The notes under the pieces: generated by a model | Databases searched by the model: none | Seen by the model: the letters and a program-made list of their open reading frames with translations, nothing else | Told to the model about the DNA's origin: nothing | NCBI RefSeq assembly: GCF_000376885.1 | Contig: NZ_AQXR01000005.1 | Coordinates: forward strand, 1 to 64,000 | Length of the DNA stretch: 64,000 bases | Direction: 5' to 3' | DNA from: Alloscardovia criceti DSM 17774 | GTDB lineage: Bacteria > Actinomycetota > Actinomycetes > Actinomycetales > Bifidobacteriaceae | In this document: one piece after another, positions 38,520-42,422 of the stretch | Layout of the letters: every line of letters starts with the position of its first letter | Numbering within the stretch: the first letter of the stretch is position 1 | Position numbers and translations under genes: made by a program

Positions 38520-39512
38520 TCAGCCTTCAGACCACGCGTGCACAGTTTCACTAGGCACGATTGGTGTAATCGAATCGGCTCGGACTGTGCGTGTACGATG
38601 TTCCTGCCTACAGACGCCATATTCATGGACAAAGGCTTGGAGCTGAGAATCGAAGGATCTCGGAAGCTTTACCATCCCCCAACCTCTCTGCTCGTAGACC
38701 GGTGCTTGCCGGATATAAGGAATCTGCCCAAATATCCGCGAGCCTAAATACTCCTCCGCCTGATACGCACTGAGTGCCGCACCCTTTGAAAGCAAACGAG
38801 AAGATTTGCGAGGCGCCACAAAAAGCACTGGATCATCCCATCTCCAGCCTGCAGGACGAGTCTGAGACGTCTCGCCTGAGTTCAGAGCCTCTACCACCTG
38901 ATGCGCACGCACAAGGGACAGAGTAGTCAATGGCGAAATAATTATCGGCTGAATGCACACCAACTGGCTTATTGCACTCCATGCACGTGCTATATCTGAG
39001 TCCATGCCCTGCCCACAATCGCAAATGACCACTTCGAAGTTTTCTAGTAGCGCCTCAAAAATGGCCTTAATTTCCCACCATTTTTTCGCCTCCGAGCGCC
39101 ACACATGCCATGGTAGAAGCCGAAAATTCTCGCAGGCAACCAGCTCTTCGCCAAAATCAGTAGAATCCACCATGCCCAAAGGAGCTTGAATATTATGCCA
39201 ACGCAGACCTTCCGTCTCTTCGCATCCCGCGAGGATATCGATACCTCCCCTGAAGAAGTCACAATCCACCACACAGACTTTTTGAAGATTCTCCGCACAG
39301 CTTTGCGCCAGATACAAGGCAAAAGAACTGGCTGTGCATCCCCCACTCGCTCCAAACACAGCAAAAACACGGGAAGTGCTGTGATACCCATCCCGAGAGG
39401 GTACAGGATTTATCTGCTCGGCGTTGTAAGCACGCACCTCGTTGTGCGTATTGTCTGGTGACGTACTCGTGCGGAAATCTGAGCTGCCTTGCCTGTTGTG
39501 AAAATTCTCCAT
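38520..39512 (-). CDS. CpaE/Ssd-like Tad locus ATPase homologue
   Basis: About 330 residues from ATG 39512 (MENFHNRQG). A MinD/ParA-fold protein with a degenerate P-loop (FGASGGCTASSFA, Lys missing), VVDCDFFRGGIDIL and VVICDCGQGMDSD. This is the septum-site-determining/CpaE-like protein that heads actinobacterial Tad loci and positions the machine. The open frame reaches back to 39647, but that would need a TTG start with no ribosome binding site; the ATG chosen also lacks a clear one, so the 5' end is uncertain. First gene of the leftward Tad operon. Confidence 0.78.
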   Translation of the reverse strand: MENFHNRQGSSDFRTSTSPDNTHNEVRAYNAEQINPVPSRDGYHSTSRVFAVFGASGGCTASSFALYLAQSCAENLQKVCVVDCDFFRGGIDILAGCEETEGLRWHNIQAPLGMVDSTDFGEELVACENFRLLPWHVWRSEAKKWWEIKAIFEALLENFEVVICDCGQGMDSDIARAWSAISQLVCIQPIIISPLTTLSLVRAHQVVEALNSGETSQTRPAGWRWDDPVLFVAPRKSSRLLSKGAALSAYQAEEYLGSRIFGQIPYIRQAPVYEQRGWGMVKLPRSFDSQLQAFVHEYGVCRQEHRTRTVRADSITPIVPSETVHAWSEG

Positions 39513-39744
39513 GCATCCACTGTGGGTTCTACGAACTGCGAAATCCAACGGGACGTGACCTGTTAGCAGATGTGGAAAAACGCCGTGCAACACGCACCTC
39601 AACAGCAAAACTAACAAAATCGAACATTTTTTGGTTAATTCAATCAAAAAGAAGGGATTAAAACTTTATGCTTACGAGCATTTTCTCAACCAAGTGATCA
39701 ATTGTGAAGATTCCCAATTTTTCGGCATTTTTCGGCGTTTTTAT

Positions 39745-39773
39745 TTGATATATCCACCAGAACCGAGGATAAT
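39745..39773 (+). promoter_or_regulatory. Sigma-70-type promoter of the candidate structured RNA
   Basis: TTGATA (39745-39750), exactly 17 bases, GATAAT (39768-39773). It points rightwards, away from the Tad locus. Expected transcription start is about 39780, which coincides with the first base of the RNA's outer stem. Confidence 0.65.
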
Positions 39774-39779
39774 AATAAG

Positions 39780-39940
39780 TACCAAGGAAAACTAAAGAGT
39801 GGAAGCCCACACGAGTAACAGCAACTGATAGGCTGAATGAGGTTGGGCGGATGGATGAGACTTTTACCGCCAGAACAATGATGTTGTGCAGAGATTCCAC
39901 TTAGTGACTTGGTAAGCCGGCTCTTCGGAGCCGGCTTTTT
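39780..39940 (+). ncRNA. Candidate structured small RNA upstream of ppk
   Basis: About 160 bases bounded by a good promoter and a strong terminator, with no reading frame of note. Nested long-range pairs are visible: TACCAAG (39780-39786) with CTTGGTA (39908-39914), then AGTGGAA (39798-39804) with TTCCACT (39895-39901), extended by CTA/TAG. Inside, GCCCA (39805-39809) can pair with TGGGC (39844-39848), but those bases overlap GGCGG (39846-39850), which can instead pair with CCGCC (39867-39871). I could not match it to tmRNA, 6S, RNase P RNA or a familiar riboswitch. It is either an independent sRNA or a leader controlling ppk. Confidence 0.6.
39916..39940 (+). terminator. Rho-independent terminator of the candidate RNA
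   Basis: GCCGGCTC (39916-39923), tetraloop TTCG, GAGCCGGC (39928-39935), then five T. A textbook terminator 236 bases before ppk, with no protein gene ending in front of it on this strand. Confidence 0.92.
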
Positions 39941-40175: not shown

Positions 40176-42422
40176 ATGGCACAACAATTTACCGGACCCA
40201 GTAAGCAAATCTTGCGCAATCAAATTGCTGAGCATATTGCTGAAACCGAAAAAGAAGACAAGTATTCCGCCCTTACCGCAGATTATCAGCCTCTTCCTGC
40301 CAATCGTTTCTACGATCGTGAATTAAGCTGGCTTAAGTTCAATCAACGTGTATTCGAACTTGCTCAAGACTCTACATTGCCTCTATTGGAACGCACCAAT
40401 TTCGAGGCAATTTTTGCAAGTAATCTGGATGAATTCTTTATGGTGCGAGTTGCTGGTCTGAAACGACGCATCAACTCAGGAATTGCTGTACCCAGTGCAA
40501 GCGGTATGAGTGCACGCCAACAACTGCGTGAATTATCCGAAGAAGCACATCGCTTGCAAGATGAGCATGCACGCTACCTCCGCGATAATTTGCTACCTGC
40601 TCTAGCTAAAGAAAACATTATTTTGCTGAAGTGGGCTGATTTAACTCCAGCTGAGCAGGAGCGTTTGACGAAGACCTATCGTCGTTATATTTTCCCTGTG
40701 CTGACGCCATTGGCCGTGGATCCTGCTCACCCATTCCCTTATATTTCCGGTAAATCGTTGAATCTCGCCGTTCTCGTGGAAAACGCCGTAAGTGGTAAAA
40801 CTCACTTTGCTCGTGTGAAGATTCCTGACAATATGCCACGTTTGCTGTCTGTGGACGATCCTAGCGAGAGCACCACTCCGGTAGCTGAAAATACGACACG
40901 TCGTTTCGGCTTTATCACCTTGGAAAACCTGATTCTTAGCCATATTGAGACACTGTTCCCAGGTATGACCATTAAGGAAGCACGCGCATTCCGCCTGACC
41001 CGTAACGAAGATATCGATGTGGAAGAGGATGATGCAGAAAACTTGCTGAACGCTATGGAGCGAGAGCTTTTGCGTCGCCGTTTCGGACCTCCAATTCGTT
41101 TGGAGCTTTCGGATGTGACAAGCCCTTACTTGAGCAAGGTGTTGAGTACACAGCTGGGCGTGGATGATTCTGAAGTGTATCGTCTTCCAGCTCCACTGGA
41201 TTTGACCTGTTTGTTTGAGCTCCATGGCATTGACCGCCCTGAGCTGAAGTACAAGTCCTTCATCCCAACCACAAACCGTCAAATTGCCGAGGTGGAGTCC
41301 AGTAGTGCGCAGGATATTTTCGCTGCAATTCGTGAAAATGATATTCTTTTGCACCATCCATATGATTCCTTCTCCACGTCTGTGCAGGCATTCTTGGAAC
41401 AGGCTGCAAACGATCCTAAGGTTTTGGCTATCAAGCAAACCTTGTATCGCACATCTGGAAACTCTCCAATTATCGATGCTTTGATTGATGCTGCACATGC
41501 GGGCAAGCAGGTACTTGCCTTGGTCGAGATTAAGGCTCGATTCGATGAAGAGGCGAATATTGCTTGGGCTCGTAAGCTGGAGCGCGCGGGTGTGCACGTG
41601 GTGTACGGCATCGTCGGCCTCAAGACTCACTCCAAGCTGTCTATGGTAGTACGCAACGAAAGTGATGGTTTGCGCCGCTACTGCCACATCGGTACGGGTA
41701 ATTACAATCCAAAGACCGCACGACTCTACACGGATATGGGCTTGCTCACCTGCGACCCTGTGGTAGGTCAGGATTTGACACGTCTGTTTAATCAGCTTTC
41801 GGGTTATGCGCCAAAGTCCAGCTTCCACCGCTTGCTCGTAGCTCCTCGCACCATTCGCACGGGCTTAATTGAACGCATTCAGCGTGAAGAACAAGCCGCA
41901 CGCAACGGTCAAGAGGCATGGATTAAGATCAAGGTGAATTCTTTGGTTGATGAAAAGTGCATTGACGCTTTGTACCGTGCAAGCCAAGCGGGTGTGAAGA
42001 TTGACATCGTAGAGCGTGGAATCTGCGCCCTCAAGCCCGGTGTGCCAGGTTTGAGTGACAATATTCGCGTGCGTTCCATCTTGGGTCGATTCCTTGAGCA
42101 CAGCCGCATCTTTGCCTTTGCAAACTCTCAAGGCCCACAGATTGGTGAAGGCCCAATGAGCGGCCCAGAGGTGTGGATTGGCTCTGCTGATTTGATGCAT
42201 CGCAATCTTGACAGGCGCGTTGAAGCATTGGTACGCATTACCGATGCTCGTCAGATTCAAGATCTTTTGGATTACATCGATTTGCAGATGTCTGATTCCA
42301 CCAGCTCGTGGCATATGCTGCCAGATGGTTCCTACGAACGTCACGCATTTGATGAAGAAGGCAAGCCATTGCAGGATAGCCAGTCCCTCCTCATTGCTCG
42401 ACATTCACGTCGGAAAAATTAA
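40176..42422 (+). CDS. ppk: Polyphosphate kinase
   Basis: A 748-residue PPK1 that reversibly transfers the gamma phosphate of ATP to long-chain polyphosphate. The N-terminal domain begins [17 protein letters not shown], followed by [17 protein letters not shown] and the head domain. [13 protein letters not shown] carries the His that becomes phosphorylated, [19 protein letters not shown] follows, and [18 protein letters not shown] with the later EHSR contributes the second catalytic His. Length is normal and all core residues are present. Upstream (39941-40175) I see only A/T-rich sequence after the RNA terminator; ppk therefore needs its own promoter or read-through. Confidence 0.95.

Follow-up and report, generated by a model that had tools for sequence, protein, structure and literature searches.

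A small RNA beside cpaE in Bifidobacteriaceae is probably a diverged form of Ms1

What kind of RNA occupies the 528-base gap between cpaE and ppk in Alloscardovia criceti? The window, i.e. the whole stretch of 64,000 nucleotides that was analysed, holds in this gap a structured sequence that the first-pass annotation read as either a new class of sRNA or a leader controlling ppk. The RNA gene is real: it has a promoter, a fold of ~160 nt, a terminator and conservation. We interpret it, with a probability of roughly 0.7, as a free-standing small RNA that is a strongly diverged Bifidobacteriaceae form of Ms1. Common descent with Ms1 is likely, though not proven.

Ms1 binds core RNA polymerase through contacts at its bubble region (PMC4191392). 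In work on M. smegmatis and S. coelicolor, this central bubble is important for the binding (PMC4191392, PMC9130861). The RNA is reported from 824 actinobacterial species, none of them in Bifidobacterium, which was described as lacking Ms1 because a syntenic gap of 20-100 nt seemed to leave too little room (PMC9130861). Papers from 2022 and 2024 state that neither Ms1 nor 6S RNA is known from Bifidobacterium (PMC9130861, PMC11077062), and a unique polymerase-binding RNA is expected in Bifidobacterium bifidum (PMC11077062).

The limits of the RNA given in Table 1 follow from the promoter at the 5′ end and the terminator at the 3′ end, both of which lie where the first-pass annotation had placed them, the terminator at 39914-39937. 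By hexamer count alone, comparable promoters occur in the region at chance level (2 found, 1.6 expected), so the promoter draws its support from the fact that its -35 and -10 elements are kept in 15 aligned orthologues. Because it closes with a terminator, the RNA forms a transcription unit of its own. No plausible gene runs across 39745-39940, as had been observed before. Minus-strand ORFs of 80 and 94 codons cross this stretch; indels among the orthologous RNAs have lengths that are not multiples of three, which argues against coding. The Rfam search agreed with the initial impression that the RNA fits no known family. No family matched the window RNA at gathering scores, and permissive settings gave only weak matches, far below the cut-offs and mostly to the terminator or the flanks. 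In the open-access literature we found no paper on a transcript at this locus or describing the present RNA.

Table 1. Features of the RNA gene and its neighbours (positions in the window)
Feature	Position	Strand	Basis or remark
cpaE (actinobacterial CpaE/Ssd-like protein)	38520..39647	-	divergent neighbour; start codon uncertain; TIGR03815 match below cut-off
Promoter	39745..39773	+	-35 TTGATA 39745-39750, 17-nt spacer, -10 GATAAT 39768-39773
Ms1-like small RNA, ~160 nt	39779..39940	+	fold z, covariation, R1 match
P1 closing stem	39780-39786 with 39908-39914	+	folding, covariation
P2a	CUAA 39792-39795 with UUAG 39901-39904	+	folding; variable among orthologues
P2	GUGGAA 39799-39804 with UUCCAC 39895-39900	+	both-sided changes in 2 of 5 pairs counted
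Bubble between P2 and P3	39805..39894	+	5′ GCC 39805-39807 starting CCCAC motif; 3′ CAGAGA 39889-39894
P3	CACA 39808-39811 with UGUG 39885-39888	+	RNAalifold consensus
Hairpin A	CAGC 39819-39822 with GCUG 39832-39835	+	covaries in orthologues
Hairpin B	outer GUU 39842-39844 with AAC 39874-39876; inner GGCGG 39846-39850 with CCGCC 39867-39871	+	covariation, RNAalifold
Competing pairing	GCCCA 39805-39809 with UGGGC 39844-39848	+	cannot form together with hairpin B
Intrinsic terminator	39914..39940	+	folding and sequence inspection
ppk (polyphosphate kinase)	40176..42422	+	downstream neighbour here, outside RNA unit

Folding of 39780-39940 gave -57.5 kcal/mol (z = -4.52), a stability reached by 0 of 200 shuffles, and both the 7-bp outer stem and the nested stem described earlier are present. 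RNAalifold applied to the bifidobacterial alignment alone recovers P1, P2 and P3 as well as a pair of hairpins, of which the second has GUU/AAC as its outer stem. The structure first used for our covariance model R1 had drawn AAC/GUU as a separate hairpin; once RNAalifold was run on a better alignment, P3 and hairpin B with its outer stem took the place of that hairpin. P3 shows no covariation inside Bifidobacteriaceae because it is near-invariant. The 3′ side of the bubble is highly conserved and faces the CCCAC motif; GAUGUUGUGCAGAGAUUC is a conserved stretch within the RNA.

Orthologues were collected by blastn from several genera of Bifidobacteriaceae, and 14 were aligned. In this alignment 96.2% of pairs are standard, eight pairs have changes on both sides, and the covariation score is 0.301 (0.188 in shuffles, at most 0.102 when slid). 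Of the stems first proposed, P2 and the inner helix of hairpin B covary, and conservation extends across the family. Model R1, which matches the window at 39778-39912 with 115 bits, finds the RNA in 160 of 189 Bifidobacteriaceae genomes and in 9 of 16 genera, in a single copy per carrier genome save for one contaminated assembly. Many carriers are Bifidobacterium species per named records. Outside the family, R1 gave no convincing match when run on 248 genomes from the order and 296 from the class; two hits of ~76 nt (L077 and L078, E 0.08-0.09) were taken as chance. R1 also found nothing in Bifidobacteriaceae genera with genomes of ~1 Mb or smaller. Two genera without a match, g4 and g12, have genomes of 0.7-1.0 Mb, several in incomplete assemblies, and a loss of the RNA there may be tied to genome reduction.

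Two mutually exclusive pairings had also been proposed. Both are exact in the sequence, but only that of 39846-39850 with 39867-39871, a covarying conserved helix in orthologues (hairpin B), clearly belongs to the conserved fold. The GCCC/GGGC pairing survives in nearly all orthologues as complementarity only, and in some of the Bifidobacteriaceae its GGG sits a few bases away. In one clade ACCC faces GGGU, a single coordinated change that falls short of proof. Computed ensembles are divided between the hairpin B state and the GCCC/GGGC state, and it is possible that the RNA is a two-state molecule.

The RNA occupies the Ms1 locus: Ms1 (RF02566; known as MTS2823 in Mycobacterium tuberculosis and as scr3559 in Streptomyces coelicolor) likewise occurs beside cpaE/ssd, with its own promoter and terminator and in single copy. 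In mycobacterial loci, Rfam puts Ms1 and 6C RNA at cpaE/ssd, Ms1 being directed away from cpaE. A Streptomyces-type locus has a HAD hydrolase followed by a scr3559-type RNA with CACCCACGCG ... CGCCUGGUAACC and a terminator immediately after. (Both locus labels derive from Rfam matches and synteny.) RF02566 at its cut-off finds only the mycobacterial type, and misses the Streptomyces type (e.g. L140) and the Ms1 RNAs of Actinomycetales. The order was searched with a short Ms1 and then with R2, a model built from 22 short Ms1-type RNAs. Since R2 recovers Ms1 widely in the order, and at the known places in the mycobacterial and Streptomyces-type loci, we regard it as a sound Ms1 model.

The constant neighbour of the bifidobacterial RNA is cpaE, which is adjacent in 34 of 43 orthologous loci (divergent in 26, co-directional in 8). 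The inverted orientation distinguishes a large set of Bifidobacterium species, group g13. Both orientations recur with Ms1: in families f2, f4, f11 and f13 it lies directly beside cpaE, divergent and without a HAD match, as in the window, and in family f17 Ms1 and cpaE run in the same direction, as in g13. The HAD hydrolase that often accompanies Ms1 at the cpaE/ssd locus does not adjoin the bifidobacterial RNA, where HAD matches lie elsewhere in the genome and below cut-off; it is missing beside Ms1 in the same five families. Within Actinomycetales (L205-L234, L240-L249), Ms1 is found after HAD, divergent from cpaE, co-directional with it (f17), or facing HAD on the opposite strand (f15), and the cassette has therefore flipped more than once. 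Four large families (f5, f6, f9 and f19) have few or no credible R2 matches to Ms1. They may have lost it, or may carry forms that diverged as far as the bifidobacterial one.

The fold points in the same direction. As in Ms1, a long hairpin with an internal bubble carries two short hairpins, the parts being a closing stem, a bubble, a second stem, two hairpins and, directly afterwards, a terminator. Both RNAs have the CCCAC motif, and a housekeeping-type promoter and an intrinsic terminator are recognizable in the sequence. In 25 diverse Ms1 RNAs with the same topology, 16 of 24 pairs have changes on both sides (score 0.321 versus 0.120), although these counts lean towards the structure because the alignment was fitted to it. 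From this alignment (A8) a compact consensus for the core of Ms1, ~100 nt in length and supported by covariation, can also be drawn.

Sequence similarity to Ms1 is weak and collinear. Profile-profile alignments of the bifidobacterial RNA with Ms1 run collinearly over the core with z-scores of 3.5 and 3.7, values that 1 and 2, respectively, of 400 column shuffles equalled. Among single bifidobacterial sequences the highest value against Ms1 was z = 6.2; several others were at chance. Model R3 was built from lower-GC and diverse Ms1 RNAs with zero bifidobacterial sequences. Over 89 kb of bifidobacterial DNA it ranked the RNA in L006 first, in the expected register (E = 0.3, not significant), and those in L008 and L005 among the top nine, all three loci belonging to one genus. 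Leader and bubble motifs are common to lower-GC Ms1 RNAs and the bifidobacterial RNA. In L240, the lower-GC Ms1 carries AACAGAACAGCG followed by ACCCACG, with CUUGAUACCC on the 3′ side; the bifidobacterial counterparts are AACAGAACAGCGG, GCCCAC and AGAGAUUCC.

No search gave a statistically significant match between the two RNAs. R2 scored 8.8 bits at the bifidobacterial RNA (not significant), an R1 search for Ms1 found none, nhmmer with an Ms1 profile returned nothing at the bifidobacterial RNA, and RF02566 had no match in the window genome and close relatives. R2 did hit five bifidobacterial genomes elsewhere (E 0.015-0.88), but these matches do not represent Ms1. Four lie within a single homologous coding region, which we read as the ribosomal protein S4 gene, and the fifth in another apparent coding region. 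The bifidobacterial RNA also differs from Ms1 in being AT-richer and shorter (~160 nt, compared with 300 nt in mycobacteria). It lacks the canonical GCACGC(C/U)UGGUAACC strand, and its 3′ bubble strand is AGAGAUUCC where Ms1 has CCUGGUAACC.

The first-pass proposal of a new sRNA class is partly sustained. The RNA is free-standing, belongs to no Rfam family, is conserved and covarying, and has its own promoter and terminator. Its novelty is weakened because it sits at the Ms1 locus, has the Ms1 fold and shows weak, collinear similarity to Ms1 in sequence.

By analogy with Ms1, we infer that the bifidobacterial RNA is expressed, binds core polymerase and functions accordingly. It would be transcribed from its own housekeeping-type promoter and end at its own terminator; its fold consists of a long stem interrupted by a bubble, a short second stem and, at the apex, two hairpins. 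As expected of an Ms1, it would build up in stationary phase and bind sigma-free core RNA polymerase at the bubble region, whereby polymerase might be stored and its amount tuned. The family, which is of medical and industrial importance, thereby gains a concrete candidate for a polymerase-binding RNA in 160 genomes, and how bifidobacteria handle RNA polymerase in stationary phase can now be tested with one probe. Our data suggest a wider spread and a greater variability of Ms1 than its Rfam family shows, and the covariation-supported core of ~100 nt narrows down which part of Ms1 matters.

The RNA could instead be a polymerase-binding RNA of its own kind, either a two-state version of Ms1 that binds and frees the enzyme by means of exclusive, conserved helices, or an RNA of a new class standing in for Ms1 at its locus. 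We regard this as unlikely. In a related and less probable scenario, the RNA is not descended from Ms1 at all, but took over its locus and, like it, binds RNA polymerase. A parallel is offered by CoRP RNA of Corynebacterium glutamicum, an actinobacterium with no recognised Ms1, in which CoRP is an abundant RNA that binds polymerase (PMC11077062). By its description, CoRP differs from the present RNA in its length of ~500 nt and its place beside tRNA genes. The lack of a significant Ms1 model match would fit such a replacement, as would the unique type that the Ms1 group expects in Bifidobacterium (PMC11077062), but the shared locus, topology and collinear motifs would then be hard to explain.

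A function unrelated to RNA polymerase, as a trans-acting base-pairing sRNA or a protein-sponge RNA, is about equally doubtful. Base-pairing sRNAs usually have a short unpaired seed, but nearly the whole of this molecule is structured and conserved. A free-standing unit with a terminator and possible exclusive pairings would suit such a role; the locus and fold, however, are those of Ms1.

To our knowledge, actinobacteria generally lack a recognised 6S RNA. A true 6S RNA (RF00013), binding the sigma-A holoenzyme and not the core enzyme, would be of similar length (~160 nt), with a long stem and central bubble. This identity is very improbable given that RF00013 matches 0 of 19 related genomes while control genomes are positive, and that the two-hairpin apical part differs from 6S and is Ms1-like. 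Neither 6S nor another Ms1 was found in the window genome or close relatives.

The proposed leader or riboswitch of ppk is hardly credible, and we reject the RNA as a switch controlling that gene. In the window ppk does lie 236 bases downstream on the same strand, but no conserved same-strand position upstream of it emerged from the 43 orthologous loci: ppk is downstream on the same strand in 13, divergent in 17 of the 30 where it is within range, and out of range in the rest. Another ORF separates the RNA from ppk in L099, the stretch examined around the RNA in L096 contains no ppk, and the gene is absent nearby in some genera. Moreover, the RNA has a strong terminator of its own, and no overlapping antiterminator was seen in folding.

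6C RNA (RF01066) also adjoins cpaE/ssd in actinobacteria. Unlike the bifidobacterial RNA it is only ~75 nt, and in mycobacterial loci it lies on the cpaE strand, opposite Ms1. RF01066 had no match in the window, and was present in 5 of 12 other actinobacterial cpaE loci. In L249, Ms1 and 6C RNA stand side by side (2018-2117 and 2292-2369) upstream of cpaE, with no HAD gene between them.
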